Origin: Pseudomonadota bacterium
GTDB taxonomy: Bacteria; Pseudomonadota; Gammaproteobacteria; QQUJ01
Reading direction: 5' to 3'
DNA: 64,000 nucleotides
NCBI GenBank assembly: GCA_008501635.1
Contig: QQUJ01000017.1
Location: forward strand, 248,001-312,000
The notes beneath the pieces are model-generated. The model was not told the origin of the DNA and did no database searches. It saw only the letters and a program-made list of their open reading frames with translations. This document shows positions 17,466 through 42,631 of this stretch, one piece after another (within the stretch, counting starts at the first letter, position 1; every line of letters starts with the position of its first letter). Both the position numbers and the translations under genes were made by a program.

Positions 17466-19307
17466 GTGGCAGCAGCAGTAGAAGAGCGGGCATCAGTGGT
17501 GGTGCGCTTCGCCGGCGACTCGGGTGACGGCATCCAGCTGGCCGGCACGCAGTTTGCCGATACCTCGGCCATTGCCGGCAACGATTTTGCGACCTTTCCC
17601 GATTTCCCGGCGGAGATACGCGCCCCGGCGGGAACCATCGCCGGGGTCTCGGCTTTTCAGATCCAGCTCTCGCGCGGTCACGCCTGGACGCACGGTGACG
17701 CGCCCGAGGTGCTGGTGGCCATGAATCCGGCGGCGCTGCGGGCCAATGTTTCCGCCCTCAAGCCGGGCGGCACGGTGGTTTTGAACACCAGCGGATTCAC
17801 CGACAAGAACCTCACCAAGGCAGGCTATGCACAGGATCCGCGTACGACCGGCGAACTGGATGATTACCGTGTCGTCGAGGTGGATGCGGCCGGGATGACC
17901 GAGGCGGCGCTCGCCGATCTCGAACTCGGCCACGGCGCCAAGCAGAAACACAAGAATTTCTTCATGCTGGGACTGGTCTACTGGTTGTTTCAGCGTGACC
18001 CGAAATCCACGCTGGCGTGGATCGAGAAAAAGTTCGCCAAGCACGATCCGTTGGTGAGCGAGGCCAACATCCGCGCCTTGAAGGCGGGTTACCACTACGG
18101 CGAGACCACCGAGCTGAGCGTTCCCCAGCGGGTGGTGGCGGCCGCCCCTCACGAACCGGGGCTCTACCGGCGCGTCTCCGGCAACGAAGCCATTGCCCTG
18201 GGCATGCTGGCGGCGGCCGAGCGCGCGGGTCTGGAACTGGTGCTGGCCTCCTACCCCATCACCCCGGCCTCGGACATCCTCCACACCCTGGCGCGCTACA
18301 ACACCTACGGTGTGCGCACCCTGCAGATGGAGGACGAGATCGCCGCCATCGGCGCTGCCATCGGCGCCGCCTACGCCGGCGGTTTTGGCGCCACCACCAC
18401 CAGCGGTCCGGGCATGGATCTCAAGGCTGAGGCGCTGGGCCTGGCGGTGTCGCTGGAGCTACCGCTGCTGGTGGTCGACGTCCAGCGCGGCGGACCCAGC
18501 ACCGGTCTGCCGACCAAGACCGAGCAGTCCGATCTGCTGCAGGCCTGCTATGGCCGCCACGGTGAGGCGCCGGTGCCGGTGCTGGCACCCGACAGCCCCG
18601 GTGATTGTTTCTGGACCGTCATCGAGGCCGCGCGTATCGCGACGCGGTTCATGACGCCGGTGATCGTGCTCTCCGATGCCTATATCGCCAATGGTACCGA
18701 GCCGTGGAATGTGCCCTCGCTCGATCTGATCCCCTCCATTCCGGTGCAATTCGCCACCGAGCCGGAAGGTTTCCAGCCGTTTGCGCGCAACGCCGATGGC
18801 GCGCGACCCTGGGCACTGCCGGGCACCCCGGGGCTGGAGCATCGCATCGGGGGCCTGGAAAAATCCGCTGGCAGCGGCAACGTCAGTTACGACTCCCTGA
18901 ACCACGAGCGCATGACCCGGGCCCGGGCCGAAAAGGTGCAGCGTGTGGCTGATACCTACGCACCGTGCGAGGTGTTTGGAGATCACGACGGCGATCTGCT
19001 GGTAGTCAGCTGGGGCGGTACGCTGGGCGCGGTGCGCGAGGCGGTGTTGCAGGCGCGTGGTGCCGGCGCTCAGCACGTCGGGCATCTGCATCTGCGCCAT
19101 CTCAATCCGCTGCCAAACGATCTGGGCGAGATTCTGACCCGCTACCGCCGCGTACTGGCGCCGGAGCTCAACAGTGGCCAGTTGGCGCAGTTGCTGCGCG
19201 CCCGCTACCTGATCGATGTGCAAACCTACTCGAAGATGCAGGGCCAACCGTTTTATGTGCACGAACTGCTGGCGGCCATCAACGCGCAACTGGAGATCAG
19301 TCCATGA
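17466..19307 (+). CDS. korA: 2-oxoacid:ferredoxin oxidoreductase, fused gamma-alpha subunit
   Basis: The 613-residue protein joins the gamma domain (about residues 10-190, starting VVVRFAGDSGDGIQLAGTQF) to the alpha domain (about 210-613, with YPITPASDILHTLARYNTYG). This order is typical of two-subunit KorA enzymes that oxidise 2-oxoglutarate (or pyruvate) to the acyl-CoA and reduce ferredoxin. The N-terminal gamma domain holds no iron-sulfur motif. The start is the GTG at 17466; an AGTGAGGTC stretch precedes it. It overlaps korB by 4 bases (ATGA), so both are translated together. Substrate choice between 2-oxoglutarate and others is from family knowledge. Confidence 0.9.
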   Translation: MAAAVEERASVVVRFAGDSGDGIQLAGTQFADTSAIAGNDFATFPDFPAEIRAPAGTIAGVSAFQIQLSRGHAWTHGDAPEVLVAMNPAALRANVSALKPGGTVVLNTSGFTDKNLTKAGYAQDPRTTGELDDYRVVEVDAAGMTEAALADLELGHGAKQKHKNFFMLGLVYWLFQRDPKSTLAWIEKKFAKHDPLVSEANIRALKAGYHYGETTELSVPQRVVAAAPHEPGLYRRVSGNEAIALGMLAAAERAGLELVLASYPITPASDILHTLARYNTYGVRTLQMEDEIAAIGAAIGAAYAGGFGATTTSGPGMDLKAEALGLAVSLELPLLVVDVQRGGPSTGLPTKTEQSDLLQACYGRHGEAPVPVLAPDSPGDCFWTVIEAARIATRFMTPVIVLSDAYIANGTEPWNVPSLDLIPSIPVQFATEPEGFQPFARNADGARPWALPGTPGLEHRIGGLEKSAGSGNVSYDSLNHERMTRARAEKVQRVADTYAPCEVFGDHDGDLLVVSWGGTLGAVREAVLQARGAGAQHVGHLHLRHLNPLPNDLGEILTRYRRVLAPELNSGQLAQLLRARYLIDVQTYSKMQGQPFYVHELLAAINAQLEISP

Positions 19308-20335
19308 CCGCCGTGACACTCGACAAACCGGCCCCCAAGGCCAAATCGGCCCGCGCGGAGTTCAAGTCCGATCAGGAGGTGCGCTGGTGTCCCGGTTGCG
19401 GCGATTACTCGATCCTCAACCAGTTCATCCGCGTGCTCGCCGATCTCGACACGCCGCGCGAGAACCATGTGCTGGTGAGCGGCATCGGTTGCTCCAGCCG
19501 CTTTCCCTACTACGTGGATTGCTACGGTATTCATAGCATCCACGGCCGCGCCCCGACCATTGCCACGGGCATCAAGGCGCTGCGCCCGGAGCTGACCGTG
19601 TGGGTCGTCACCGGCGACGGCGATGGACTGTCGATCGGCGGCAACCACCTGCTGCATGCGTTGCGGCGCAACGTCGATATCAAGGTGCTGCTGTTCAATA
19701 ATCGCGTCTACGGGTTGACCAAGGGGCAGTACAGCCCCACCTCGCTGGCCGGCATGCGCACCAAGACCTCGCCCGGCGGCTCCATCGAAACGCCTCTCGA
19801 TCCCCTGCGCCTGGCGCTCACCGCCGGAGCGAGTTTTGTCGCACGCAGCATCGACACCGACGGCCCGCACCTGTATCAGACGCTGAAACGCGCGGCGGAG
19901 CACAAGGGCGCGGCTTTCGTCGAGATCTTCCAGAACTGCCCGGTGTTCAACGACGAGGTCCACGGCCACCTGACCAACAAAACCGGCAAAGCCGAGAACG
20001 TCCTCTATCTGGAGGCGGGAAAACCCCTGGTCTATGGTGCCGAGGGCGACAAGGGCATAGCGATCGATGCGCGCCTGCACCCCGAAGTCGTTGCCGCGAC
20101 CGATAAGCGGGTTCTGGTAATGGACGAAGGTGCCGAGCCCTTGGCGCAGCTCCTCACCGGTCTCCACCATCCCGAATTCCCAACGCCGGTCGGCGTTTAT
20201 CGGTCGGTGCAAAGGCCAACCTTCGAAGGTGAACTTGCCCAACGATTGCCGGAAAATCGAAAGATCGACAAATCACGCCTGCAGGGTCTTCTTGAATCAG
20301 GCCCCACTTGGCGCATCGGGGTGGATTGGTTGTAA
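19304..20335 (+). CDS. korB: 2-oxoacid:ferredoxin oxidoreductase, beta subunit
   Basis: The 343-residue protein binds thiamine diphosphate and an iron-sulfur cluster: CPGCGDYSI near residue 30 and GDGDGLSIGGNHL for the thiamine diphosphate/Mg2+ site. It also has HGRAPTIATGIK and an NNRVYGLTKGQYSPTS stretch, all typical of KorB. With KorA it feeds low-potential electrons to ferredoxin. No separate ferredoxin gene is nearby. The start is the ATG at 19304, overlapping korA. A longer upstream frame is a shadow of korA. Confidence 0.92.
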   Translation: MTAVTLDKPAPKAKSARAEFKSDQEVRWCPGCGDYSILNQFIRVLADLDTPRENHVLVSGIGCSSRFPYYVDCYGIHSIHGRAPTIATGIKALRPELTVWVVTGDGDGLSIGGNHLLHALRRNVDIKVLLFNNRVYGLTKGQYSPTSLAGMRTKTSPGGSIETPLDPLRLALTAGASFVARSIDTDGPHLYQTLKRAAEHKGAAFVEIFQNCPVFNDEVHGHLTNKTGKAENVLYLEAGKPLVYGAEGDKGIAIDARLHPEVVAATDKRVLVMDEGAEPLAQLLTGLHHPEFPTPVGVYRSVQRPTFEGELAQRLPENRKIDKSRLQGLLESGPTWRIGVDWL

Positions 20336-21238: not shown

Positions 21239-22459
21239 TTACGCCCGCTCCTGGGCGAGTCGCGGCAACGGCCTCTCGTTGATGGGCAGATGGATCACCG
21301 CTGCGGCGATGCCCAGCGCGACGCCCGCCCACCATACCGTATCGTAGGTGCCGGTCGTATCGTAGAGCCGCCCCCCGAGCCAGACGCCGAGGAAACTGCC
21401 GACCTGATGGCTGAAGAATACGATGCCGAACAGCGTTGCCATGTACCGCACCCCAAACACCTGGGCGACGATGCCCGAGGTGAGCGGTACCGTGGAGAGC
21501 CACAAAATCCCCATCGCCCCGGCGAACAGGTAGATGGTCAGCTCGGTTTTCGGGGACACGAGCAGTGCGGTGATGACGATCGCCCGCGTGAAATAGATGA
21601 AGGCGAGCCCGCCTTTCTTGCTCCAGCGTTGACCGGCGGCACCCGAGAGAAACGAGCCGATGATGTTGAACAGACCAATGATCGCAATCGAGTAAGCGCC
21701 CACTTCTGCGGGTAACCCCAGATCTCTTACGTACGCCGGAAAATGGACCGTGATGAAGGCGACATGGAAACCGCACACAAAAAACCCCACGGTGAGCAGA
21801 ACGAAACCGCGGTGGCCCACCGCTTCTACCACTGCACCGCCGATGCTCTGTTGGTTGGCCGCCTCGCCTGGGTGATCGGTGTTGCCCGGCAGTACGAGGG
21901 CCAGCGGGATGATGATCAGCGCCGTTACGGCGAGGATGAGCAGTGCCGAGTGCCAGCCGAATTGCGTGATGAAGAGTTGCCCGAGGGGTGAGAAGACCAC
22001 CTGACCGAAGGAGCCGGCGGCGGTACCCAGACCCAGGACCAGCGAGCGCCGCTCCGGTCCTACGACTTTTGCCAGCGCAGCGAGCACGATGGAGAAGGCG
22101 GTGAAGGCGATTCCCAGGCCTGTCAGCAGGCCGCCGAACAGGTGCAGTCCCATGCTGCTGGTGGTGGTCGCCATGCCCCAGACACCGGCCCCGTAAAGCA
22201 CGGCGCCCACCGCAAGCACGCGGGTGGGGCCGAAGCGGTCGGCAATGGCGCTGGCGACCGGTACCCCGATCCCCCACAGCAGGTTCTGGATCGCCATCGC
22301 CAGGGCGAAGGTCTCGCGGCCCCAGCCGCGCGCCTCGGTCATTGGCTCCAGAAACAGGCCGAAGACCGAGCGCACACCGAATCCAATCATGGCGATCAAG
22401 CACCCGGCGACTATCACCAAGGCGGGTGTGCGCCAGCCTATCGTTAGTGGTTGCATCAT
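21239..22459 (-). CDS. MFS transporter
   Basis: The 406-residue protein has about 12 hydrophobic segments and the usual MFS loop with DRFGPTR (residues 69-75). The N-terminal GFGVRSVFGLFLEPMTE and the weakly polar pore are typical of monocarboxylate/oxalate-formate-like MFS exporters or importers (MCT/OFA type). It is just upstream of the 3' end of the fatty-acid type cluster (SDR, ACAD, APH kinase, phosphatase) and in the same direction, 80 bp behind the SDR. It may move a substrate or product of that cluster. The substrate is not known. Confidence 0.8.
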   Translation of the reverse strand: MMQPLTIGWRTPALVIVAGCLIAMIGFGVRSVFGLFLEPMTEARGWGRETFALAMAIQNLLWGIGVPVASAIADRFGPTRVLAVGAVLYGAGVWGMATTTSSMGLHLFGGLLTGLGIAFTAFSIVLAALAKVVGPERRSLVLGLGTAAGSFGQVVFSPLGQLFITQFGWHSALLILAVTALIIIPLALVLPGNTDHPGEAANQQSIGGAVVEAVGHRGFVLLTVGFFVCGFHVAFITVHFPAYVRDLGLPAEVGAYSIAIIGLFNIIGSFLSGAAGQRWSKKGGLAFIYFTRAIVITALLVSPKTELTIYLFAGAMGILWLSTVPLTSGIVAQVFGVRYMATLFGIVFFSHQVGSFLGVWLGGRLYDTTGTYDTVWWAGVALGIAAAVIHLPINERPLPRLAQERA

Positions 22460-22539: not shown

Positions 22540-23328
22540 TTATACACCCGCCAGCAAGGTGCCGCCATCGACCGTCAGGGTCACTCCCGTCATGTAGCTG
22601 CCCGCATCGCTCGCCAGCAGCAACAGCGGGCCGGACAGCTCGGTGAGTTCTCCCGTGCGCCGCGGAAACAGGCGCGTGAGATAGACCTGGCCCTTCTCGC
22701 TGGCGAAGAAGTCACGGTTGATCTCGGTCGGAAAATAGCCCGGTGCCAGTGCGTTGACGCGAATCCCTTCGCGCCACAGTTCGCGCGCCATGGTACGGGT
22801 GAGATGGATGACGCCCGCCTTGGCGGTGGCGTAGTTGCTTTGCGTCGCCTGGGTCGCAAGCCCCAGGATGGAGGCGATGTTGATGATGGCGCCCTGCGTT
22901 TTGTGCGCGACCATGCGGCGCGCCACCTCCTGACTGACGCGCCACACGCCGCTGAGGTCGGTGTCGAGCACCCGTGACCACGCCTCCTCCGACATGGTCA
23001 GGAACGGTTGGGTATCGGCGATGCCCGCGTTGTTGACCAGAATATCGATGGGGGCGCACGCCTGCTCCGCAGCGCTTACGGCGGCTGCGACGCTGGAGCG
23101 TTCGGTGACGTCCATGACGACGGTGTGCGCGGTGATTCCGTCCGCCGCCAGGGTCTCCACCGCCGCGTGCAGGCGATCGGCATTGCGGGCGGCGAGAATC
23201 ACTTGGGCACCGGCAGCGGCCAAGGTGCGGGCGAAGTGGAGTCCCAGCCCGGTGGCGCCGCCGGTAACCAGCGCGGTTCTGCCGTGCAGGGAAAAGAGTT
23301 CGGCGGGAGTCGGGTTGGCATCGCTCAT
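22540..23328 (-). CDS. SDR-family oxidoreductase
   Basis: The 262-residue protein is a classical SDR with TGGATGLGLHFA (cofactor loop, about residues 22-33), NNAG at 99-102, a serine in NIASILGL, and YATAK (Tyr166-Lys170) as catalytic residues. It oxidises or reduces a hydroxyl/keto group with NAD(P). The ATG at 23328 follows GAGGAGAAAG. It lies in the same direction as the ACAD and kinase genes (26 bp after ACAD) and likely shares their operon. A role in oxidising a hydroxyacyl-CoA is inferred. A longer open frame over this gene is a shadow of ACAD in another frame. Confidence 0.88.
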   Translation of the reverse strand: MSDANPTPAELFSLHGRTALVTGGATGLGLHFARTLAAAGAQVILAARNADRLHAAVETLAADGITAHTVVMDVTERSSVAAAVSAAEQACAPIDILVNNAGIADTQPFLTMSEEAWSRVLDTDLSGVWRVSQEVARRMVAHKTQGAIINIASILGLATQATQSNYATAKAGVIHLTRTMARELWREGIRVNALAPGYFPTEINRDFFASEKGQVYLTRLFPRRTGELTELSGPLLLLASDAGSYMTGVTLTVDGGTLLAGV

Positions 23329-23354
23329 GGGCTTTCTCCTCTTCGCATGGGCGT

Positions 23355-24605
23355 TTATAACTCCTTGGGCGGGGTCAGATAGGCCGCCGCACGGCCCAGT
23401 GTCTGCTGCCCGGCCTTGACCTCCATGCGCGCGATGCTGCGCAGATGCACCTCGTCGGGGCCGTCGGCATAGCGCAGCGCGCGTGCCCAGGTCCACAGAT
23501 CGGCCAGCGGCGTATCGGGGCTGATGCCCATGGCGCCGAAGGCCTGCATAGCGCGGTCGATGACCCGGGCCTGCATCGCCGGTACCAGCGCCTTGATCAT
23601 GGCCACCTCCTTGCGCGCGGCCTTGGCGCCCTCCCGATCGATCACCCACGCCGTTTTCAGCACCAGCAGGCGCGCCTGTTCGATCTCGACGCGGTTCTGC
23701 GCGATCCACTCGGCCACCACACCGTGTTGGTGCAGGTAGCGGCCAAAAGTCTTGCGCTCCTGGACGCGCTCGACCATCAACTCCTGGGCGACTTCCGCCT
23801 GACCGATGCAGCGCATGCAGTGGTGGATGCGCCCCGGACCAAGGCGCGCCTGGGCCATCATGAAACCGTCGCCCTCGGTGGCCAGCAGGTTGGCGCGCGG
23901 TACGCGCACGTCGCGGAACACGATCTCGCAGTGGCCTTCGGGGGCGACGTGGTTCATGACGCGGATGTTGCGCACCACGGTGACACCGGACGTCTCTATG
24001 GGCACCAGGATCATGCTCTGCTGGCGGTAGGGCTCGGCGTCGGGATCGGTCTTGCCCATCACGATCAGCAGCCGGCACTGCGGGTGGGCAGCATTGGTGA
24101 TGAACCACTTGCGCCCGTCGATCACGTAGTCGTCGCCGTCGCGGCGGATCAGGGTCTGGATGTTGGTGGCATCCGAGGAGGCGACGTCGGGTTCGGTCAT
24201 GGCGAACGCCGAGCGGATCTCGCCGGCCAGCAACGGGACCAACCACTGCTGGTTCTGATCCGCGGTGGCGAACTGGTGTAGCAGCTCCATGTTGCCGGTA
24301 TCCGGCGCGTTGCAGTTGAATACCTCCGGCGCCCACATCACCCGGCCCATGATCTCGGCCAGCGGTGCGTATTCGAGATTGGTCAGCCGGGTACCCGGCT
24401 CTGCGTCGTGCAGCGCGGGCAGGAAGAGGTTCCACAGCCCCTCCGCTCGGGCCAGCGCCTTGAGATCCTCCATGAAGCTCGGCGGATAGTTGCCCTGGTC
24501 AACTTCGCGCTGCCACGCGCCGATGCGCGGGACGATGTGATCGTCCATGAAGTCGCGCACGCGCCGGCGCAGCTCTTCGACCTTGGGGGTATAGGCAAAA
24601 TCCAT
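23355..24605 (-). CDS. Acyl-CoA dehydrogenase, ACAD10/ACAD11-like
   Basis: The 416-residue flavoprotein has the acyl-CoA dehydrogenase fold (FAMTEPDVASSDATNIQT in the middle region). Two segments match the ACAD10/11 clade: VFNCNAPDTGNMELLHQF and GPGRIHHCMRCIGQAE. In animals ACAD10/11 have a fused kinase domain and handle 4-hydroxyacyl-CoA by phosphorylating the hydroxyl and eliminating phosphate. Here the kinase is a separate gene 238 bp upstream, divided only by a repeat. It lies between that kinase and the SDR in one direction. The ATG at 24605 gives the normal length. Confidence 0.9.
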   Translation of the reverse strand: MDFAYTPKVEELRRRVRDFMDDHIVPRIGAWQREVDQGNYPPSFMEDLKALARAEGLWNLFLPALHDAEPGTRLTNLEYAPLAEIMGRVMWAPEVFNCNAPDTGNMELLHQFATADQNQQWLVPLLAGEIRSAFAMTEPDVASSDATNIQTLIRRDGDDYVIDGRKWFITNAAHPQCRLLIVMGKTDPDAEPYRQQSMILVPIETSGVTVVRNIRVMNHVAPEGHCEIVFRDVRVPRANLLATEGDGFMMAQARLGPGRIHHCMRCIGQAEVAQELMVERVQERKTFGRYLHQHGVVAEWIAQNRVEIEQARLLVLKTAWVIDREGAKAARKEVAMIKALVPAMQARVIDRAMQAFGAMGISPDTPLADLWTWARALRYADGPDEVHLRSIARMEVKAGQQTLGRAAAYLTPPKEL

Positions 24606-24843
24606 GGTTACTCCCGGGGTTGTCGGGGTGATTGACGCCCGTCCGATGACTTTGAGACCTGACCGGACTCAGGATAATCGGCATGCGGTGACGGCGGCAA
24701 AACGGAAGCCACCGAAAACACCGAAGACACTGAAAGGATAGATTGGACTAGCGACTTCGTAATGACAGAGTGCCCTTCCACGTGCGGCGGTTCGCCCTCG
24801 GCAGTTTTCGGTATCTTCAGTGTCTTCGGTGGTTCCCCAATCT
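24606..24843. repeat. Intergenic repeat with inverted copies (24707-24836)
   Basis: Between the ACAD and kinase genes, two copies of a short repeat face each other. One reads CACCGAAAACACCGAAGACA (about 24710-24730) and the other is its inverted form, TTTTCGGTATCTTCAGTGTC (about 24804-24823). They could fold into one large stem. No gene is present; this looks like a dispersed intergenic repeat. Confidence 0.55.
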
Positions 24844-25875
24844 TCAATCATCCTCAATGATCGCCATAGCCATCTCCGCCAGGGGCCGCGCCAGCTTGCC
24901 GACCTCCACCGCCCGTGGATTGGAAGCATTGCCGTCCAGCGCGCGCTTGCCCACGCCCTGCACGATCGCCGCAAAGCGGAAGAAGCTGAAGGCGAGATAG
25001 AAGGCCCAATGGGGGATCTCGTCGAGGCCCATGCGATCGCAGTAGGTGGCGACATACTCGGCGTCGCTGGGAATGCCCAGCGCGGCGCGATCGATCCCGC
25101 CCAGTCCCGGCAGCAGCTCGCCACTGCCGGGCAGGTGCCACTGCATGCACTGGTAGGCGAGATCGGCGAACGGGTGGCCGAGAGTGGAGAGCTCCCAGTC
25201 GACCACGGCGATCACGCGCGGTTCGCTGGCGTGGAAGATCAGGTTGTCGAGCCGGTAATCGCCGTGCGCCAGAGCGACGCGGCCGTCGTCCGGCGGCATG
25301 TGCGCCGGCAGCCATTCCATCAGCTGGTTCATGGCGGCGATGGTCACGGTCTCGCTGGCGCGGTACTGCTGCGCCCAGCGGCTGAACTGGCGCTCGTAGT
25401 AGTTGCCGGGCCGCCCGTAGTCGGTGAGACCCACCGCCGCGATGTCGACGCTGTGCAGTGCCGCCAGCACGCGATTCATGTCGTCGTAGACCGCGCTGCG
25501 CGCCGCGCGGTCCAGTTCCGGCAGCGCCGGGTTCCAGAACACCCGTCCCGCTTTGTACTCCATGACGAAGAACATGCTGCCGATGATGCTCGCGTCCTCG
25601 CACAGGTGATAGACGGCGGCCACGGGTACCTCGGTGTCGCGCAGCGCCGCCATCACCCGGTACTCGCGATCGACGGCGTGGGCCGATTTCAACAGTTCGC
25701 CCGGCGGCTTGCGGCGCAGCACATAGTTGCCGCTGGCGGCATGCAGCAGGTAGGTGGGATTGGACTGGCCGACAGTGAATTTCTCCGCGCGCAAAGGGCC
25801 GCGAAAACCGGGTATGGCGCTCTTCAGATAGGCGGCCAGGCGGGGTTCGTCGAGGGCGTGCGGTGATTCACTCAT
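24844..25875 (-). CDS. APH-family phosphotransferase of ACAD10/11 type
   Basis: The 343-residue protein has an aminoglycoside-phosphotransferase-like kinase fold. AHGDYRLDNLIFH is the catalytic loop and VVDWELSTLGHPFADLAY the Mg2+ region. QSNPTYLLHAASGNYVLRRK near residues 30-50 resembles the kinase half of ACAD10/11. Such kinases phosphorylate hydroxyacyl-CoA rather than antibiotics, so a resistance role is unlikely. It is 8 bp after the histidine phosphatase gene and upstream of ACAD. Confidence 0.88.
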   Translation of the reverse strand: MSESPHALDEPRLAAYLKSAIPGFRGPLRAEKFTVGQSNPTYLLHAASGNYVLRRKPPGELLKSAHAVDREYRVMAALRDTEVPVAAVYHLCEDASIIGSMFFVMEYKAGRVFWNPALPELDRAARSAVYDDMNRVLAALHSVDIAAVGLTDYGRPGNYYERQFSRWAQQYRASETVTIAAMNQLMEWLPAHMPPDDGRVALAHGDYRLDNLIFHASEPRVIAVVDWELSTLGHPFADLAYQCMQWHLPGSGELLPGLGGIDRAALGIPSDAEYVATYCDRMGLDEIPHWAFYLAFSFFRFAAIVQGVGKRALDGNASNPRAVEVGKLARPLAEMAMAIIEDD

Positions 25876-25883
25876 CGGTTGCG

Positions 25884-26558
25884 TCAGCCGTAGGTGATGG
25901 CGTCGAAGCGCCCGGGTGTATCCAGATGCGGCACGGCGTTGAATCCGGCCAGCACCATGCGCCGGTCGTTGAAGTAGAGCCGTGAAAGACTGGTGTTGTA
26001 GAGCTGCATATTGAGTTCGATCGCCTGTTCGTCCGCCAACGCCAGCACCGCGCCGAGGATCGCCGCGATCGGCCCGCCCGAGCTGACCACCAGCACCCGC
26101 TCGCCTTTGGCGGCCGGGCGCTGGATATCGGCCACCACATCCGCGATGCGCTGTTTGAAATCTTCCCAGCTCTCCGGCAGATGGTCATCGAGCTTGCCCG
26201 CCGCCCAGCTCAGCAGTGCGTGTTTGAGGAGACGGTAGAAGGCGGCGTGATCATCCGCCGGCGGCTGCGCCGTATCCGTGGTTTCGCGGTAACTCCGCAC
26301 CAGGGTGGTGAAATCGTACTCGTTGAGACCGGTGTGTTCCTCTGCCGTCAGCTCCCTGCCCAGACCACTGGCAAGAGCCGTAACCGTAGCGCACTGGCGC
26401 TGCAAGGTGCCGACCATCGCGCGATCGAAGGTCAGGGCACGCTCGGCGAAGTATGCGCCCAGCCACCGCGATTGCCGTTCTCCCAGCGGCGACAGGCGAT
26501 CGTAGTTGCCGGCGCCGAAGGAGGCTTGTCCATGGCGGACCAGGTACAGCTCGGCCAT
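25884..26558 (-). CDS. Histidine phosphatase family protein
   Basis: The 224-residue protein begins with LVRHGQASFG, the RHG phosphohistidine motif, and has a VSSGGPIAAI segment near residue 155 that would hold further catalytic positions. Members remove phosphate from sugars or other small phosphates. It leads the minus-strand set with APH-kinase, ACAD and SDR. A phosphatase beside a kinase that makes phosphoacyl-CoA could be a correction or control step; this is inference. Confidence 0.82.
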   Translation of the reverse strand: MAELYLVRHGQASFGAGNYDRLSPLGERQSRWLGAYFAERALTFDRAMVGTLQRQCATVTALASGLGRELTAEEHTGLNEYDFTTLVRSYRETTDTAQPPADDHAAFYRLLKHALLSWAAGKLDDHLPESWEDFKQRIADVVADIQRPAAKGERVLVVSSGGPIAAILGAVLALADEQAIELNMQLYNTSLSRLYFNDRRMVLAGFNAVPHLDTPGRFDAITYG

Positions 26559-34110: not shown

Positions 34111-35679
34111 ATGCAGCTCAAGAATTATCTGGAAGGCCGTTGGATAGCCGGCAACGGAGCGGGCGTGCCGCTGATCGACCCGGTCACCGGCGAGGAACTG
34201 GCGCGTGCCGGCAGCGCAGGCCTGGATCTCGCCGCCGCCCTCGCCTACGCCCGCGAGACGGGCGGGCCTGCGCTGCGCGCCATGAGCTACGCCGAACGCG
34301 CCGCCCTGCTGCGCGCCGTGGCCGACGTACTGACCGCGCAGCGCGACAAGTACTACCGGATCGCGCTGGAGAACTCCGGCAATACCAAAGGCGACGGCGG
34401 ACTGGATATCGACGGGGGTATCGGTACGCTCAAATATTACGCCGCCATCGGCAAGGCGCTGGGCGATCACCGTTTTTTGATGGAACCGACGCTGGAGCGG
34501 CTGGGGCGCGACGAGGCGTTCCAGGCCGGGCATATCTGGACGCCGATCAGTGGCGTCGCCATTCACATCAATGCCTTCAATTTTCCTTCGTGGGGCATGT
34601 GGGAGAAGGCGGCAGTGGCGCTGCTCGCCGGCGTGCCGGTGTTCGAGAAACCGGCGACCGCGACCGCGCTGCTGAGCCACGCCATGGTCCGGGACGTGAT
34701 CGACGCGGAGGTGCTGCCCCCCGGGGCGCTGTCGCTGCTCTGCGGCGGCGGTCACGATCTGCTGGATCATGTGCAGAGTAATGATGCGGTGGCCTTCACC
34801 GGGTCGGCCGCCACGGCCGCCAAACTGCGTTCCAATCCCAGGGTGATTGCCAGCAACGTGCGCTTCACGGTCGAAGCCGACAGCCTCAATCTGGCGCTGC
34901 TGGGTCCGGATGTCCAGCCCGGTAGCGACGAGTTCAAGCTTTTTGTGAAAGAGGTGGTGCGCGAGATGACCACCAAGGCGGGGCAGAAGTGCACCGCCAT
35001 CCGCCGCGTTCTGGCGCCGGCCGACCGCATCGATGCCCTCGCGGAAGCGCTCAGCGCGCGCCTGGCGGGTACGACCGTCGGTGATCCGCGCAACGAGACC
35101 GTGCGCATGGGTCCGCTGGTCAATCGCAGCCAGCAACAGGCCGCCTGGGAGGGGATCGAGCAACTCAAGCAGGAGGCCAGCGTGATCTTCGGTGGCGAGC
35201 GCGACTGTGCCCTGGTGGATGCCGACCACGCGACCGGCTGCTTCGTCCCACCGACGCTGTTGCGCTGCGATTCGCCCGCCACCAGTCGCCTGGTGCACGA
35301 GGTGGAGGTGTTCGGTCCGGTGGCCACGCTGATGCCGTATGTGAGCACCGAGCAAGCCTTTGAGCTGGCCGCGCGCGGCGGTGGATCGCTGGTGGCGTCG
35401 GTGTTCACCGGTGACGATGCCTTCGCCGCGCAGGCGGCGGTCGCGCTCGGGCCGACCCACGGGCGGGTGTTCATCATCGATGCCTCCGTCGGCGAGAGCC
35501 ACACCGGGCATGGCGTGGTGATGCCGCAGTGCGTGCACGGTGGACCCGGGCGCGCCGGTGGCGGTGAAGAGCTGGGCGGGCTGCGTGGTCTGCGGTTCTA
35601 CCACCAGCGCAGCGCAGTGCAGGCCAATGCGAATCGGCTCGAGGCGATGCAAGGGCAAGCGGCGGTGGTATCGTTGTGA
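34111..35679 (+). CDS. boxD: 3,4-Dehydroadipyl-CoA semialdehyde dehydrogenase (BoxD)
   Basis: The 522-residue aldehyde dehydrogenase oxidises the semialdehyde made by BoxC to 3,4-dehydroadipyl-CoA with NADP+. The catalytic cysteine is Cys294 in KAGQKCTAIRR, and INAFNFPSWGMWEKAA is typical of the PaaZ/BoxD group, not of ordinary aldehyde dehydrogenases. The C-terminal GHGVVMPQCVHGGPGRAGGG is also a BoxD sign. It lies in the same direction as the hydrolase, with a REP pair in between, and is followed by enoyl-CoA hydratase after a second REP set. Confidence 0.93.
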   Translation: MQLKNYLEGRWIAGNGAGVPLIDPVTGEELARAGSAGLDLAAALAYARETGGPALRAMSYAERAALLRAVADVLTAQRDKYYRIALENSGNTKGDGGLDIDGGIGTLKYYAAIGKALGDHRFLMEPTLERLGRDEAFQAGHIWTPISGVAIHINAFNFPSWGMWEKAAVALLAGVPVFEKPATATALLSHAMVRDVIDAEVLPPGALSLLCGGGHDLLDHVQSNDAVAFTGSAATAAKLRSNPRVIASNVRFTVEADSLNLALLGPDVQPGSDEFKLFVKEVVREMTTKAGQKCTAIRRVLAPADRIDALAEALSARLAGTTVGDPRNETVRMGPLVNRSQQQAAWEGIEQLKQEASVIFGGERDCALVDADHATGCFVPPTLLRCDSPATSRLVHEVEVFGPVATLMPYVSTEQAFELAARGGGSLVASVFTGDDAFAAQAAVALGPTHGRVFIIDASVGESHTGHGVVMPQCVHGGPGRAGGGEELGGLRGLRFYHQRSAVQANANRLEAMQGQAAVVSL

Positions 35680-35773
35680 TTGCAGCTGTCGCCGCCACGG
35701 CCCTCCGCGCCGGGCGCGTAGGTGTCAATGTAGGTCGGGCTTCGCGTCCATTGCCTCCCCCCGCATTGGGGAT

Positions 35774-35926
35774 GCAGGAGCGGCGGCAGCCGCGAAAGGA
35801 TTGAGTTGTGTCTCTCGCAAAGACGCGAAGTTCGCCAAGATAAGAATCCCCTTTGCGTTCGCTGCGTCTTGGCGTCTTAGCGCGAAATCTGGCTCGATAA
35901 GAACTCGCGGCTTCCGCCGCTCCTAC
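35774..35926. repeat. REP and second-family repeat between boxD and the hydratase
   Basis: A REP copy at 35774-35796 and an inverted copy at 35905-35926 frame another inverted repeat (35815-35886) of the CGCAAAGACGCGAAG / CTTGGCGTC family. The outer pair could fold around the inner one. No gene is present in 35680-35941 other than this. The second repeat family also occurs at 42390-42536 and 50370-50445. Confidence 0.7.
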
Positions 35927-35941
35927 ACGGGATCTGAAACC

Positions 35942-36715
35942 ATGTCTTACGACAATCTTGTTTATACGGCGCAAGACGGCGTTGCGACCCTCACCCTCAA
36001 CCGCCCCGAGGCGCGCAATGCGCTGAACAATGCGCTGCTCTCCGAGGTGGCGGACGCGCTGGAGGCGGCTGCCGCCGACGATGCGGTGCGGGTAGCGATC
36101 ATCACCGGCGGGCCCAAGGTCTTCGCAGCGGGAGCGGACATCAAGGAGATGGCAGCGCTCGATATGGTCGGGGTGATGAACGATCCGCGTCCCGGCTACT
36201 GGCGGTGCATCGCGGCCTTTCCCAAACCGCTCATCGCCGCCGTGAATGGTTACGCCCTGGGCGGTGGCTGCGAGCTGATGATGCACGTCGATATCGTCGT
36301 CGCCGGCGAGGATGCGCTGTTCGGACAGCCCGAGATCAATCTCGGCATCATCCCCGGCGCGGGCGGTACGCAGCGCCTGATGCGCACCGTTGGCAAAGCG
36401 CTGGCGATGAAAATGGTGCTTGCGGGAGAGTTCATCGATACCCCCACCGCACTGCGCGCCGGGCTGGTCGCCGAAGTCGTTCCACCCGATCAGGCACTGG
36501 CGCGGGCGAACGAACTGGCGGTCAAGATCGCGGCCAAGGGGCCGATCGCGGTGCGTTTGGCCAAGGAGGCGCTGCTGAAGGCCTATGAAACCACGCTGGA
36601 GTCGGGCCTGGCCTTCGAGCGCAAGGCGTTCACGCTGCTCGCGGGCACCGAGGATCGCAGGGAGGGTATCGCTGCCTTCATGGAGAAGCGCACCCCCGAA
36701 TTCAAAGGGAGGTGA
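35942..36715 (+). CDS. Enoyl-CoA hydratase/isomerase family protein (box cluster)
   Basis: The 257-residue protein has the crotonase oxyanion-hole segments AAGADIKEM and GYALGGGCELMMH and the catalytic stretch QPEINLGIIPGAGGTQRL with both glutamates. It would hydrate or isomerise 2,3- or 3,4-dehydroadipyl-CoA, the product of BoxD, on its way to beta-oxidation (PaaF-like role). This is inferred from the position. The ATG at 35942 follows the repeat-filled gap; a longer frame upstream is meaningless. Confidence 0.88.
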   Translation: MSYDNLVYTAQDGVATLTLNRPEARNALNNALLSEVADALEAAAADDAVRVAIITGGPKVFAAGADIKEMAALDMVGVMNDPRPGYWRCIAAFPKPLIAAVNGYALGGGCELMMHVDIVVAGEDALFGQPEINLGIIPGAGGTQRLMRTVGKALAMKMVLAGEFIDTPTALRAGLVAEVVPPDQALARANELAVKIAAKGPIAVRLAKEALLKAYETTLESGLAFERKAFTLLAGTEDRREGIAAFMEKRTPEFKGR

Positions 36716-36732
36716 GCCGTACCGCGCCCCGT

Positions 36733-36903
36733 GCAGGAGCGGCGGAAGCCGCGAAAAACCCGTACATCACGCCTTGCGGCGCCCGCTCACCGTAGAGGTC
36801 AAGGCCGTAGGAGCGGCGGCAGCCGCGAAAAAACCGTACATCACGCCTCGCGACGCTCGCCCACCGTAGAGGTCAAGGCCGTAGGAGCGGCGGCAGCCGC
36901 GAA
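36733..36903 (+). repeat. REP array with 74-bp tandem spacing
   Basis: Three same-strand REP copies start at 36733, 36807 and 36881, exactly 74 bp apart. The spacer also repeats with a few changes (CGTACATCACGCC ... CCGTAGAGGTCAAGGCC), so this is a 74-bp tandem repeat made of REP plus spacer. It abuts the end of the RAYT gene, which is 33 bp beyond. Confidence 0.93.
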
Positions 36904-36936
36904 GGGAATTGGCGAGACGAACCGCGTTCCACTGGC

Positions 36937-37416
36937 CTATAACCAAATGGCGTCCCAATGCGGGTAGTCACCGATGCGCCTTACCAAACCGGCACGAAGG
37001 GGGTTGGCAATGATGTAACGGGCGGTGGCGGCCAGATCTTCCTCCATACGCAGCGAGTGATCGTGAAACCCTGGTTGCCAGACATGTTCACGCTGAGTGC
37101 CGCGCTGCCGGTCGATCGCCTTGGCCGAGTTGGCCTTGAACAGGCCGACCACCCGCGGAAGATCATCACCGGCCAGTTGTAGCAGCCAGTGCAGATGGTC
37201 GGGCATGAGCATGAAAGCGAGCGTCGCGCAGCGGCCGAGGTGATCGCAGCGGCGCAGTTCCCCGATAGCCGCGCGCGACAGGGCAAAGTCGGCGAAGAGG
37301 GGGATTCGCCCCCTGGTGACCGTGGTCACCAGATAGATGCGGCCCGCCTCGGAGACGCGGCCGCGGCGCAGGGCGCAGCCGTGGGGCGTTTGGTGCATAT
37401 GGTGTCGTCCTGACAT
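36937..37416 (-). CDS. REP-associated tyrosine transposase (RAYT)
   Basis: The 159-residue protein is in the Y1/IS200-like family that mobilises REP repeats. MLMPDHLHWLLQLAG has the HUH motif (His-Leu-His), and the catalytic tyrosine is probably in the AATARYIIANPLRAGLV stretch. The length is typical of RAYTs. REP copies lie on both sides (36733-36903 and 37486-37573), and many more occur in the region. The gene sits between the enoyl-CoA hydratase and the boxC promoter, opposite to both. Confidence 0.9.
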   Translation of the reverse strand: MSGRHHMHQTPHGCALRRGRVSEAGRIYLVTTVTRGRIPLFADFALSRAAIGELRRCDHLGRCATLAFMLMPDHLHWLLQLAGDDLPRVVGLFKANSAKAIDRQRGTQREHVWQPGFHDHSLRMEEDLAATARYIIANPLRAGLVRRIGDYPHWDAIWL

Positions 37417-37485
37417 GGGTTGAAGGAATTCCGTTGTCCTCTGACCGCCATTGTAGGTGTTGGGGCCATAGCGGTGAAATCCAGA

Positions 37486-37573
37486 TCGCGGCTGCCGCTG
37501 CTTCTGCCTTTTCCATAGGAGCGCCGGAAGGTGCGATTGGGAGATATGAATCGCGCCTTCCGGCGCTCCTACA
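37486..37573. repeat. REP copies downstream-side of the RAYT gene, including a variant hairpin
   Basis: 37486-37507 is an inverted, worn copy of the standard REP (TCGCGGCTGCCGCTGCTTCT). 37516-37536 and 37551-37571 form a nearly perfect hairpin of a variant, TAGGAGCGCCGGAAGGTGCG and TCGCGCCTTCCGGCGCTCCT, with one mismatch. The variant has a GCGCCGG core in place of GCGGCGG, so a second related REP subfamily exists. Confidence 0.8.
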
Positions 37574-37659
37574 GGAGGCGTTGGTGGGGTAGCGCGCCGT
37601 GCGGCTTTGCCCTTTATCCATCGGGGGTACCCTCCCTGGCATTATCACCGTCCCTTTGG

Positions 37660-37820
37660 CGCACTATAGTGCTTCTTTCCTGGTCAGACATGGTTTCTGA
37701 TTACACCGGTTATTTGTGAAATCACAATGACTTAACAGATATTGCCGGAATTATTCGCGACCCAACGCACTTATAGTGCATTTTTGGGTTGCAAGCCTGT
37801 GTATGCTGCACTATATTACC
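37660..37820. promoter_or_regulatory. boxC promoter region with three BoxR-like operators
   Basis: Three related sites lie within 220 bp of the boxC start: CGCACTATAGTGCT (37660-37673), CGCACTTATAGTGCA (37766-37780) and TGCACTATATTACC (37807-37820). They share the core of TGCA-N6-TGCA, the operator known for BzdR/BoxR. The 37417-37873 gap holds no gene. BoxR, with benzoyl-CoA as the effector in known systems, is encoded downstream of boxA. Confidence 0.6.
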
Positions 37821-37873
37821 TACCACGGCACGGCACACGTGCGACCTCACTACCAATCAGAGGAATCAAGCGG

Positions 37874-39523
37874 ATGATCGATTTTCAAACCCACCCGGAT
37901 CGCTACCGGCACTGGAAACTCTCTGTCGACGGCCCGGTTGCGCACCTGACCATGGACGTGGACGAGACCCAGGGCCTGTTTCCCGGCTACGAGCTGAAGA
38001 TGAACTCCTACGATCTCGGCGTCGACATCGAGCTCTACGATGCCGTACAGCGGCTGCGCTTCGAGCATCCCGAAGTTCGCACCGTGGTGGTCAACTCCGA
38101 GAAGGCGCGCATCTTCTGCGCCGGCGCCAACATCCGCATGCTCGGCGGCTCCACCCACGGCCACAAAGTGAACTTCTGCAAATTCACCAACGAGACCCGC
38201 AACTCCATCGAGGACGCCAGCGTGTTTTCCGGCCAACGCTACCTTTGCGCCATCAACGGCACGGCGGCGGGCGGTGGCTACGAGCTGGCTCTCGCCACCG
38301 ACTACATCATGCTGGTCGACGACGGCAACGCGGCGGTCTCGCTGCCCGAGGTGCCGCTGCTGGCCGTACTGCCCGGTACCGGCGGACTCACCCGGCTGGT
38401 CGACAAGCGCAAGGTGCGCCGCGATCTGGCCGATATCTTCTGCACCACCGAAGAGGGCGTGAAGGGGCAGCGCGCTGTCGACTGGCGCCTGGTGGACGAG
38501 ATCGCGCCGACCTCCAAGTTCGCCGAACGCGTCCAGGCACGGGCCCTGGCAATGGCGTCCACTTCCGATCGTCCCGAAGGCGCCAAAGGCGTCACGCTCT
38601 CGCCGTTGCAGCGAGAGATCGGCGAGAACACCGTCACCTATCCCCATCTGTCGGCCGTCGTGGAACGCGACAAGCGCCTGGTGACCATCACGCTGAAAGG
38701 TCCCGGCAGCGCGGCCCCGGCCGATGTGGTGGGTATCGAAGCGCAGGGTGCTGATTTCTGGCCGCTGGCGCTGGTGCGCGAGCTGGACGATCTGCTGCTG
38801 CATCTGCGCACCAACGAAACCGAGATGGGTACCCTGATCCTCAAGACCGAGGGTGATCATGACCTGGTCGCCGGCTATGACGCACTGCTGGCCGCCCATC
38901 AGGACAACTGGCTGGTGCGCGAGATCACGCTCTACTGGAAGCGCACCCTGAAGCGCATCGATGTCACCTCCCGCACCAGCTTTGCGCTGATCGAGCCGGG
39001 CAGCTGCTTTGGTGGGATTCTGGCCGAGCTGGTCTTCGCGGTGGATCGCAGTTACATGCTGGACGGGCAGTTCGAGGATGACGACCGTCCGGCGGCGGTG
39101 CTGCGTCTCAATGGGTTCAATTTCGGTCCACTGCCCATGCCCAACGATCTCACGCGGTTGCAAACCCGCTTCCTGGGTGAACCGGAAAGTGTCGACGCCG
39201 CCCAGGCGATGATCGGCAAAGATATCGATGCGGCGGCCGCGCTGAAGGCCGGGCTGATCACCTACGCACCGGACGACATCGACTGGGAGGATGAGATCCG
39301 CCTGGTGCTGGAAGAGCGCGCCAGCTTCTCCCCCGACGCGTTGACCGGCCTCGAAGCCAATCTGCGCTTTGCCGGACAGGAAACCGCCGAGACCAAGATC
39401 TTCGGCCGTTTGAGTGCCTGGCAGAACTGGATCTTCCAACGTCCCAACGCGGTGGGCGAACACGGTGCGCTAAAACTTTACGGAACCGGTACGCGTCCTG
39501 AATACAATCACGAGAGGGTGTAA
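37874..39523 (+). CDS. boxC: Benzoyl-CoA-dihydrodiol lyase (2,3-epoxybenzoyl-CoA dihydrolase)
   Basis: The 549-residue protein opens the ring of 2,3-epoxybenzoyl-CoA to the semialdehyde and formate. It has two crotonase-type halves, with FCAGANIRMLGG and INGTAAGGGYELALA in the first, and FALIEPGSCFGGILAELVFA in the second. These features and the length match BoxC. The ATG at 37874 (MIDFQTHPDRY) follows AGAGGAATCAAGC; a longer upstream frame adds unrelated residues. boxB follows 5 bp later. Confidence 0.95.
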   Translation: MIDFQTHPDRYRHWKLSVDGPVAHLTMDVDETQGLFPGYELKMNSYDLGVDIELYDAVQRLRFEHPEVRTVVVNSEKARIFCAGANIRMLGGSTHGHKVNFCKFTNETRNSIEDASVFSGQRYLCAINGTAAGGGYELALATDYIMLVDDGNAAVSLPEVPLLAVLPGTGGLTRLVDKRKVRRDLADIFCTTEEGVKGQRAVDWRLVDEIAPTSKFAERVQARALAMASTSDRPEGAKGVTLSPLQREIGENTVTYPHLSAVVERDKRLVTITLKGPGSAAPADVVGIEAQGADFWPLALVRELDDLLLHLRTNETEMGTLILKTEGDHDLVAGYDALLAAHQDNWLVREITLYWKRTLKRIDVTSRTSFALIEPGSCFGGILAELVFAVDRSYMLDGQFEDDDRPAAVLRLNGFNFGPLPMPNDLTRLQTRFLGEPESVDAAQAMIGKDIDAAAALKAGLITYAPDDIDWEDEIRLVLEERASFSPDALTGLEANLRFAGQETAETKIFGRLSAWQNWIFQRPNAVGEHGALKLYGTGTRPEYNHERV

Positions 39524-39528
39524 GGAAA

Positions 39529-40992
39529 ATGAGCGAAGCAAGCGTTGAAGCAACCGTCGAAGTCAACTACGACGATCTGATTCCCAACAATGTCGATCTG
39601 TCGCAGGACCGCAGCCTGAAAAAGGCGCTCGAAGCATGGCACCCGGGTTACATCGACTGGTGGAAAGAGATGGGCCCGGAAGGCTTTCAGGATGCACAGG
39701 TCTACCTGCGTACCGCCGTCGGCGTCGATCCCAAGGGCTGGGCCAAGTTCGATTACGTGAAGATGCCCGAGTACCGCTGGGGCATCCTGCTGGCGGCAAA
39801 GGAAGAGGGCCGCACCATCCCCTTCGGTAAGCACAAGGGCGAACCGGCGTGGCAGGAAGTGCCGGGCGAGTACCGTGCGCAGTTGCGCCGTCTGCTGGTG
39901 ATCCAGGGCGACACCGAGCCGGCGTCGGTGGAGCAGCAGCGGTACCTCGGCAAGACCTGCCCGTCGCTCTACGATCTGCGCAACCTGTTTCAGGTCAACG
40001 TCGAAGAGGGCCGCCACTTGTGGGCGATCGTCTATCTGCTGGTGAAGTACTTCGGCCGTGACGGTCGCGAGGAGGCGGAAGGCCTGCTGCAGCGTCGCTC
40101 CGGTAACGAGGACCGGCCGCGCATGCTGGGCGCCTTCAATGAAGCGACGCCCGACTGGTTGTCGTTCTTCATGTTCACCTACTTCACCGACCGTGACGGC
40201 AAGATGCAGCTCGAGGCGCTGGCGCAGTCAGGCTTCGATCCATTGTCGCGCACCACGCGCTTCATGCTCACCGAAGAGGCGCATCACATGTTCGTCGGTG
40301 AGTCCGGTGTCGGCCGTACCATCCAGCGTACCTGCGAGGCGATGAAAGAGGCAGGCATCACCGATCCCAACGATGTCGCGGCGGCGCGCAAGCTCGGCGT
40401 CATCGATCTGCCGTTGATTCAGCGCAAGGTGAATTTCCACTACGCCGTGACTAAGGATCTGTTCGGCGCCGAGGTCTCCACCAACGCCGCCAACGCCTTC
40501 AACGCCGGTCTCAAGGGTCGTTATCAGGAGACCAAGATCGACGACGATCATCAGCTGGAGAACGACACCTATCCGGTGACCAAGGTGATCGACGGCGAGC
40601 TGAAGGTTGTCGAGGAGCCGGCGCTCAACGCCATCAACGCGCGCCTGAACGACGACTACACCAAGGATGCGCAGGGTGGTGTCAATCGCTGGAACAAGAT
40701 CATCAGCAAGATCGGCATCGATTTTGAAATCGTCCTGCCCAATGCCGGATTCAACCGCCGCGTCGGCGAGTTCGCCGATCACTTCATCAGCCCGGATGGC
40801 AAGGTGATGAGCGAGGCGGACTGGAATGCCAAACGTGACGAGTGGCTGCCCACCCAGGAAGATCTCAAGTTCCTGGCTGATCTGATGAAGCCGGTCACCG
40901 AGCCCGGCAAGTACGCCGGGTGGATTGCCGAACCCAAGGTCGGCATCGATAACAAGCCGGGTGATTTCGAGTACGTGCAGGTAGCTTCCTGA
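39529..40992 (+). CDS. boxB: Benzoyl-CoA 2,3-epoxidase, oxygenase component
   Basis: The 487-residue diiron protein inserts oxygen into benzoyl-CoA to give the 2,3-epoxide. It has an EEAHHMFVGESG metal-ligand motif (Glu-x-x-His) near residues 245-256, and a further DWLSFFMFTYFTDRD helix for the other ligands. The length and order fit BoxB, which needs BoxA to supply electrons. It begins 5 bp after boxC with a TAAGGAAAATG start, so translation coupling is likely. boxA follows after 133 bp. Confidence 0.96.
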   Translation: MSEASVEATVEVNYDDLIPNNVDLSQDRSLKKALEAWHPGYIDWWKEMGPEGFQDAQVYLRTAVGVDPKGWAKFDYVKMPEYRWGILLAAKEEGRTIPFGKHKGEPAWQEVPGEYRAQLRRLLVIQGDTEPASVEQQRYLGKTCPSLYDLRNLFQVNVEEGRHLWAIVYLLVKYFGRDGREEAEGLLQRRSGNEDRPRMLGAFNEATPDWLSFFMFTYFTDRDGKMQLEALAQSGFDPLSRTTRFMLTEEAHHMFVGESGVGRTIQRTCEAMKEAGITDPNDVAAARKLGVIDLPLIQRKVNFHYAVTKDLFGAEVSTNAANAFNAGLKGRYQETKIDDDHQLENDTYPVTKVIDGELKVVEEPALNAINARLNDDYTKDAQGGVNRWNKIISKIGIDFEIVLPNAGFNRRVGEFADHFISPDGKVMSEADWNAKRDEWLPTQEDLKFLADLMKPVTEPGKYAGWIAEPKVGIDNKPGDFEYVQVAS

Positions 40993-41125
40993 TCGCTGCG
41001 GGGGATAGGCGGGGGCGGATCGGCTGCGGTCCGCCCTTCGTCCACTACACCGCAACCGCGCGTGACTGCGCCGACATAAACCCGCTATCTTCTCATTCGC
41101 TGAATTGATGCTATCAGGAGAAGCC

Positions 41126-42340
41126 ATGCAGCCCACCCGCCAGCACCTCATCGATCCCGAGATCTGCATTCGCTGCAACACCTGCGAAGAGACCTGCCCG
41201 ATCGATGCGATCACCCACAACGAGGACAACTACGTCGTCGATGCGGCCAAGTGCAAGTTCTGTCTGGACTGCATCGGTCCCTGCCCCACGGGTGCGATCG
41301 ACAATTGGCGCATGGTGACTCAGTTCCACTCGCTTGAAGATCAGTTTTCGTGGGACGAACTGCCCGAACAGCAGGAACTGGAGGAGGCTGCCGAAGAAAC
41401 CGGCGATTCCGAGGCCGTCGAGAAAGAGGCGACCGAGCTGCTCCAGGTGGCCCATGCGTCCGAAGGCGGCAAAGTACCGCCGCCGTGGTCTGCCGCGCAT
41501 CCCTACATCAATCTCTACAGCCGTGATGCGCCGATCAAGGCACGCGTCGCAGGCAACTATCGGATCACCGATGATGCCGCCGAATCGGATATTCACCACA
41601 TCGTGCTGGATTTTGGCTCCACCGCGTTCCCGGTCCTGGAGGGTCAGAGCATCGGCGTCATCCCGCCGGGCAAGGATGCCAAGGGCCAGCCCCACATGAT
41701 GCGCCTCTACTCCGTAGCCAGTCCGCGCGACGGCGAGCGGCCCAACCACAACAACCTGGCGCTGACCATCAAACGGGTTCGCACGGAAAAGGATGGCAAG
41801 CCGGTTGACGGTGTCGGCTCGAATTTCATGTGCGATGTGAAAAAGGGCGACGAGGTGCAGGTGACCGGCCCGTTCGGCAGCAGCTTTCTCATGCCCAACC
41901 ACCCGACCGCCAACATCATCATGATCTGCACCGGTACCGGCTCGGCGCCGTTCCGCGCCATGACCGAACGACGCCGCCGCCATATGCCCGATGCGCCCGG
42001 TAAATGGCTGCTGTTTTTTGGCGCGCGCACGCCCGACGAACTGCCTTACTTCGGTCCGCTGAAGAAACTGCCCGATAGCCTGCTCGATAAGGAGCTGGTC
42101 TTTTCCCGCATGCCTGATGGGCCCAAGGAGTACGTCCAGGACCGGATGCTGAAACGTGGCATCGATATCGGCGAGTTGCTGAAGAGCGAGGATACCTACG
42201 TTTTCATTTGCGGCCTCAAGGGTATGGAGACCGGCGTTGAGGGCGCATTCGCCGAGATCTGCGGGAAGCATGGATTGGACTGGGAGATCCTGCGTGCACA
42301 GATGCGTAAAGGGGGCCGCTATCACGTGGAGACCTATTGA
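41126..42340 (+). CDS. boxA: Benzoyl-CoA 2,3-epoxidase, reductase component
   Basis: The 404-residue protein moves electrons from NADPH to BoxB. The N-terminus has two [4Fe-4S] ferredoxin motifs: Cys14, 17, 20 and 24, and Cys43, 46, 49 and 53. A ferredoxin-NADP+ reductase-like part follows, with [11 protein letters not shown] (FAD) and [14 protein letters not shown] (NADP), ending in the aromatic tail YHVETY. The ATG at 41126 has CAGGAGAAG before it; upstream in-frame TTG/ATG (41105/41108) are less well placed. Confidence 0.95.
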
Positions 42341-42389
42341 TCGTTGTCCGCCGCTTGCGATATCGCTGAGAAATGAAAACCCTGTGCAT

Positions 42390-42536
42390 CTTTCGCAGAG
42401 GCGCCAGGAACGCGAAGAGAAGCGCAAGACGAGTGTTGTGAAACGGCCGGGCCGCCGCGGTAGTGGGTGTTGCAGTCGGGTCTTTAACGAAAGAGTTTTT
42501 ATTCTGCCTGGCGTTCCTCGCGTCTTTGCGAGAGTC
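42390..42536. repeat. Inverted repeat of the CGCGAAGA / TCGCGTCTT family
   Basis: Between boxA and boxR (42341-42631), a sequence near 42390-42430 (TTTCGCAGAGGCGCCAGGAA) pairs roughly with its reverse near 42504-42535 (GCCTGGCGTTCCTCGCGTCT). They could form a large stem. Related copies are at 35815-35886 and 50370-50445. Confidence 0.5.
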
Positions 42537-42631
42537 AATTGCTTCAAAAGGAATCGCTCCGAGCGGTTGTACAAACGGGCATACGGAACAAAACTGTGTA
42601 CCATGAGCTGCATTGATCAGGCGGATTAGCG

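Follow-up and report, generated by a model that had tools for sequence, protein, structure and literature searches.

A split ACAD10/11-type gene module with a histidine phosphatase-like partner lacking the second catalytic histidine

The window analyzed here is a 64,000-nucleotide stretch from a Pseudomonadota bacterium of the gammaproteobacterial lineage QQUJ01 (assembly GCA_008501635.1, contig QQUJ01000017.1, positions 248,001 to 312,000 of the forward strand). Four genes running from position 26558 down to 22540 quite probably constitute a split ACAD10/11 module for the breakdown of 4-hydroxyacyl-CoA, in which a histidine phosphatase-like protein (HP) would limit the phosphorylated intermediates. 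The other three genes encode an aminoglycoside phosphotransferase (APH)-type kinase, an acyl-CoA dehydrogenase (ACAD) and a short-chain dehydrogenase/reductase (SDR). The kinase and ACAD are two separate genes, not one polypeptide as in ACAD10/11. The grouping of the four families is beyond chance, since they recur together in many other genomes, and HP is a real, conserved partner of the module.

25884..26558, minus strand: HP (P0004, 224 aa), histidine phosphatase-like; Pfam PF00300 His_Phos_1, 81 bits
24844..25875, minus strand: APH-type kinase (P0003, 343 aa), equivalent of the ACAD10/11 kinase domain as a gene of its own; Pfam PF01636 APH, 181 bits
23355..24605, minus strand: ACAD of the ACAD10/11 type (P0002, 416 aa); three ACAD Pfam domains, mouse ACAD11 at 398 bits
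22540..23328 (ATG of the SDR frame), minus strand: SDR (P0001, 262 aa from the ATG); Pfam PF00106 adh_short, 196 bits

Kinase and ACAD correspond to the two halves of ACAD10/11

Among solved structures, the closest relative of the ACAD is mouse ACAD11 (the 398 bits listed above); 4hr3, a putative acyl-CoA dehydrogenase, scores 383 bits, and past the ACAD11 entries and 4hr3 no score exceeds 141 bits. The kinase matches 3dxp best (410 bits) and mouse ACAD11 second (282 bits), and it is single copy in its genome (1 match, E ≤ 1e-5). Over three of four blocks each, the ACAD shares 47% of 289 positions with mouse ACAD11 and the kinase 44% of 300.

Features specific to ACAD10/11 have been described for both domains (PMC12440821; this and the other papers cited here are drawn on from partial texts): the aspartate base D753, the HCMR motif H634-R637 and R626 in the ACAD domain, and D220, N225, R176 and R86 in the kinase domain. 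Mapped onto mouse ACAD11, for which the chain numbering is shifted by one, ACAD P0002 carries all of the residues listed for it, as R254, R259, H262-C263-M264-R265 and the catalytic aspartate D381. Kinase P0003 has D206, N211 and R162 at the positions of mouse D220, N225 and R176 (CoA-contacting), along with a further catalytic residue, D226. The presence of these ACAD10/11-specific residues gives good support to a route that breaks down 4-hydroxyacyl-CoA by phosphorylating it and then eliminating the phosphate.

The original prediction had matched the kinase and ACAD to the two halves of ACAD10/11, and this holds, mouse ACAD11 being the best or second-best solved relative and the catalytic and phosphate-binding residues being in place. 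Its suggestion that the cluster breaks down 4-hydroxy acids is also the best reading of the ACAD10/11 homology and the published residues. We do not retain its alternative of 3-hydroxy acids: the known chemistry is that of 4-hydroxyacyl-CoA, and nothing found points to 3-hydroxy substrates.

The gene group recurs across genomes

In a class-level sample of 274 genomes, the kinase (E ≤ 1e-20) is found in 32, the ACAD (E ≤ 1e-70) in 30 and HP (E ≤ 1e-10) in 19. All 30 genomes with an ACAD relative also carry the kinase, as do 18 of the 19 with HP (Fisher p about 1e-18; Fisher values here ignore the relatedness of genomes). The sole HP genome of this sample that lacks the kinase, G257 (locus L113), gave no kinase match even at E ≤ 0.001. 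In 14 of the 19 genomes the kinase is no more than 6 kb from HP, and in 15 either the kinase or the ACAD is that close. A phylum-level sample of 398 genomes, which shares at least five genomes with the class sample (G000, G007, G106, G161 and G223), contains the kinase in 131 and HP in 70, and 68 of these 70 have the kinase. As a control, the SixA-type HP of the window's own genome was traced through the class sample, where it occurs in 126 of 274 genomes and shows only a weak association with the kinase (present in 20 of the 32 genomes that have the kinase; odds ratio 2.1, p=0.06); this weak association rejects the idea that co-occurrence with the kinase is a general trait of histidine phosphatases.

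Across 65 kinase loci, some of them from the same genus and nine of them from a set of ten plasmid loci picked by their HP match, the neighborhood within 4 kb of the kinase contains ACAD in 37, SDR in 31 and HP in 24. Wherever HP and the kinase are both present within 4 kb, they share a strand (24/24). HP stands beside the kinase in shuffled order across Pseudomonadota, Deinococcota and Actinomycetota, and annotated plasmid records show the two adjoining, in several gene orders, in Azoarcus, Caballeronia, Sulfitobacter, Azospirillum and Ideonella (Pseudomonadota) as well as in Deinococcus and Streptomyces. In Burkholderia cenocepacia, an unannotated record read by sequence search, the order is HP, kinase, two SDR matches and ACAD, and its kinase and ACAD are 60% and 73% identical to those of the window. 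Among the plasmid loci, the one from Haematobacter shows no kinase in the 4 kb around HP, and in that of Cupriavidus metallidurans HP is alone within 6 kb.

HP lacks the second catalytic histidine

HP P0004 keeps R8-H9-G10, R54 and E80, and its second catalytic histidine is replaced by Ser160 (VVSSGGPI). We aligned 55 distinct HP proteins from all class-sample loci, 30 phylum-sample places and 10 of 46 plasmid records, with duplicates and matches shorter than 120 residues dropped. The first catalytic histidine, Arg54 and Glu80 are each present in 55 of 55, and the position of the second histidine is a serine in 55 of 55. In a profile alignment with solved proteins of the CobC and phosphoglycerate mutase types, S160 falls at their second histidine. 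PF00300 is found in 45 of 45 HP homologs, and the confident AlphaFold model (mean pLDDT 96.1) matches histidine phosphatases, 9mmh best. Of the features of histidine phosphatase superfamily branch 1, HP has the RHG histidine, the second arginine and the acidic residue, and lacks the second histidine of the HG motif.

As a control, a PF00300 search of the window's own genome and 12 kinase-bearing genomes yielded 33 loci that were read (3 of 4 from the former, 30 of 49 from the latter). Five gave no usable frame, and nine encode P0004-like proteins, all of the serine form; the 19 other frames have the histidine motif in 16 and the serine form in none, with 3 assigned to neither. Loss of the second histidine generally cripples histidine phosphatases. 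Because this residue is invariably serine, HP is perhaps no ordinary phosphatase, and it is doubtful that it simply hydrolyzes the phospho-intermediate; the earlier suggestion of the phosphatase as a control step is plausible. A search of the open-access literature for histidine phosphatases without the second histidine turned up no title or abstract on this group, and within the literature searched the serine replacement in HP was not found described.

Some serine-type HPs (loci L109, L110, L112 and L113) lie away from the kinase and ACAD, beside unrelated genes. Ten proteins encoded around such HPs, read at four loci, include none of the pathway.

Proposed pathway and the role of HP

In the proposed pathway, a CoA ligase would first make the CoA ester of the acid, and the kinase would phosphorylate the 4-hydroxyl of the resulting 4-hydroxyacyl-CoA. 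The ACAD, with its aspartate base, FAD and the phosphate-binding HCMR/arginine set, would then eliminate the phosphate to give a 2-enoyl-CoA that enters beta-oxidation. By analogy with LvaD, the SDR probably interconverts 4-oxo- and 4-hydroxyacyl-CoA, which would form or invert the 4-hydroxyl and supply the stereoisomer accepted by the kinase; the ACAD10 kinase prefers the R form (PMC11342911). The HP-like accessory would limit the 4-phosphorylated pool, through restraint of the kinase or slow removal of dead-end phosphates. Others have demonstrated the kinase and ACAD chemistry on related proteins, and its assignment here follows from the residues; what the SDR and HP do, and which substrate is the natural one, is inferred.

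Two accounts of HP deserve weight. In the first, which is plausible but which we stop short of calling probable, HP would be a degenerate phosphatase, bound to the kinase or to the product of the kinase, that either restrains the kinase, as the HAD domain of ACAD10 does, or supports it, as LvaB seems to support LvaA. The invariable loss of the second histidine and the shared strand of HP and kinase fit this account, as does the P. citronellolis locus, where HP is present and no lvaB stands next to lvaA (PMC6692424). The ACAD10 HAD domain likewise has an incomplete catalytic motif, shows negligible phosphatase activity and restrains its kinase (PMC11342911), a suggestive parallel to HP. Against a degenerate HP, the rest of the catalytic site is conserved in every copy, something a mere scaffold would not require, and in some genomes HP is found apart from the module (4 of the 19 class HPs have neither a kinase nor an ACAD nearby).

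The second account, only a little less likely than the first, makes HP a working pathway phosphatase that dephosphorylates 4-phosphoacyl-CoA or, as a repair enzyme, free 4-phosphohydroxy acids that have lost CoA. It draws on the same invariant first histidine, Arg54 and Glu80, on the free 4-phosphohydroxyhexanoate measured in mammalian cells (PMC11342911) and on a 2019 proposal of phosphate removal from 4-phosphovaleryl-CoA (4-PV-CoA) in the P. citronellolis cluster (PMC6692424). It has to contend with the serine at the second histidine, which sets HP apart from the other HP-family frames of the control, and with the fact that direct hydrolysis of 4-phosphoacyl-CoA would merely reverse the kinase step.

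A more specific form of the degenerate-phosphatase account is tentative and, in our judgment, unlikely as it stands: HP, having lost the second histidine, would be a dedicated sensor of phospho-intermediates that restrains the bacterial 4-hydroxyacyl-CoA kinase, an independent counterpart of the ACAD10 HAD domain with a different fold. If bacteria do restrain the kinase by an unrelated degenerate phosphatase, control of the 4-phospho pool would be a general need of the pathway. Such restraint, if true, could be tested with simple purified proteins and would correct the published guess of simple phosphate removal by a histidine phosphatase. More broadly, it is by the kinase/ACAD route that cells can burn 4-hydroxy acids (gamma-lactones, levulinate, lipid-peroxidation products).

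It is very improbable that the kinase, despite an APH fold like that of aminoglycoside kinases, acts on another small alcohol or an antibiotic beside an ordinary beta-oxidation ACAD: an antibiotic kinase was rejected because the APH(3') match reaches 40 bits against a cut-off of 205, compared with 282-410 bits for ACAD11-type kinases, and P0002 has the aspartate base and the HCMR motif, both of which are absent from ordinary ACADs.

Gene row and neighboring genes

Beyond the four genes, the following features bear on the module.

24702..24834, no strand: non-coding stretch between the kinase and ACAD that holds two imperfect inverted repeats (18-19 nt arms, spaced by about 81-84 nt)
21239..22459, minus strand: major facilitator superfamily (MFS) transporter, following the SDR in the same orientation; Pfam PF07690 MFS_1, 136 bits
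30857..32488, plus strand: AMP-binding acyl-CoA synthetase outside the gene row, 4.3 kb from the HP gene

HP, kinase, ACAD, SDR and MFS genes all lie on the minus strand, in one direction, as originally described, and their Pfam families agree with that description. The gaps are 8 bp between HP and the kinase, 238 bp between the kinase and ACAD, 26 bp between the ACAD and SDR and 80 bp between the SDR and MFS. The MFS gene does follow the SDR as a same-direction neighbor, and here the original gene row needs trimming: the MFS gene is rejected as part of the module because it is near the kinase at 1 of the 65 loci, that of its own genome, and it is probably outside the conserved module. The best NCBIfam match of its protein, an L-lactate MFS transporter, is under the cut-off.

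Several observations weigh against a split module of the kind proposed. Kinase R86, which contacts CoA beside the αC glutamate, could not be placed, position 86 of mouse being a phenylalanine in the numbering used; mouse R84 beside E85 is conserved in P0003 as R70-E71. No CoA ligase lies inside the cluster, whereas the lva operon has one; the AMP-binding synthetase is a candidate activator of the acid substrate. The 238-bp gap with its inverted repeats makes a single transcript uncertain, and this stretch may separate two transcripts. It occurs at three places in the genome, the other two as short pieces on another contig, and looks like a small dispersed repeat. HP is absent at E ≤ 1e-10 from 14 of the 32 class kinase genomes, so the pathway can do without it. 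Of the 70 HP genomes of the phylum sample, at least 34 have HP within 6 kb of a kinase, and two, G464 and G494, have no kinase.

Near the module, at 17466-20335 (plus strand), are two genes that by eye resemble subunits of 2-oxoacid:ferredoxin oxidoreductase. Such a subunit also lies just past the module at the Azoarcus locus L157, which may be chance. Farther along the window, a run in one direction at 34111-43558 (plus strand) encodes an aldehyde dehydrogenase, a 549-aa enoyl-CoA hydratase-domain protein, a 487-aa protein without a Pfam match, a 4Fe-4S/NAD-binding oxidoreductase and a shikimate-kinase/HTH regulator, and we take this run to resemble the genes of the aerobic benzoyl-CoA (box) pathway, the regulator BoxR included. 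At 44691-46217 (plus strand), glutamate-synthase-like and CDGSH iron-binding domains are joined in one protein.

Comparison with known systems

The pairing of a bacterial kinase and ACAD with ACAD10 chemistry, and an HP-containing cluster, are already published, so the split-module idea is not new. In 2024, the Burkholderia pseudomallei kinase Q63VL0 and ACAD Q63VL1 were each shown to replace the corresponding ACAD10 domain in vitro on 4-hydroxyhexanoyl-CoA (PMC11342911), and in 2019 a kinase-HP-ACAD-SDR cluster without lvaB was described in P. citronellolis LA18T, in a locus that holds the genes with the strongest induction by levulinate (PMC6692424). In the open-access literature searched, the 2019 paper is the only one found to describe HP with a kinase/ACAD module. 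New here are the recurrence of HP beside the kinase, the presence of the kinase in nearly all HP genomes and the invariant serine.

The Pseudomonas putida lva operon (2017, known here through later papers) likewise has a kinase, ACAD and SDR with proposed functions; it differs in having LvaB, a CoA ligase and a symporter, and the accounts in those papers, as far as their available text goes, include no HP. The P. citronellolis LA18T cluster has kinase, HP, ACAD and SDR together and, in the available text, no lvaB beside them. Its kinase is 59% identical to LvaA and so probably belongs to another branch than that of the window, and it has its own gene order, with a CoA ligase, a transporter and a regulator adjacent. 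B. pseudomallei Q63VL0 and Q63VL1 share the separate kinase and ACAD and are likened to the window by description, the sequence comparison having been made with B. cenocepacia, whose locus has the same families plus HP; the available part of the 2024 paper mentions neither HP nor SDR. Mammalian ACAD10 and ACAD11 have homologous kinase and ACAD halves with the same catalytic residues, and the module described here differs in having these as separate genes, with no HAD domain and with an HP-like protein and an SDR alongside.

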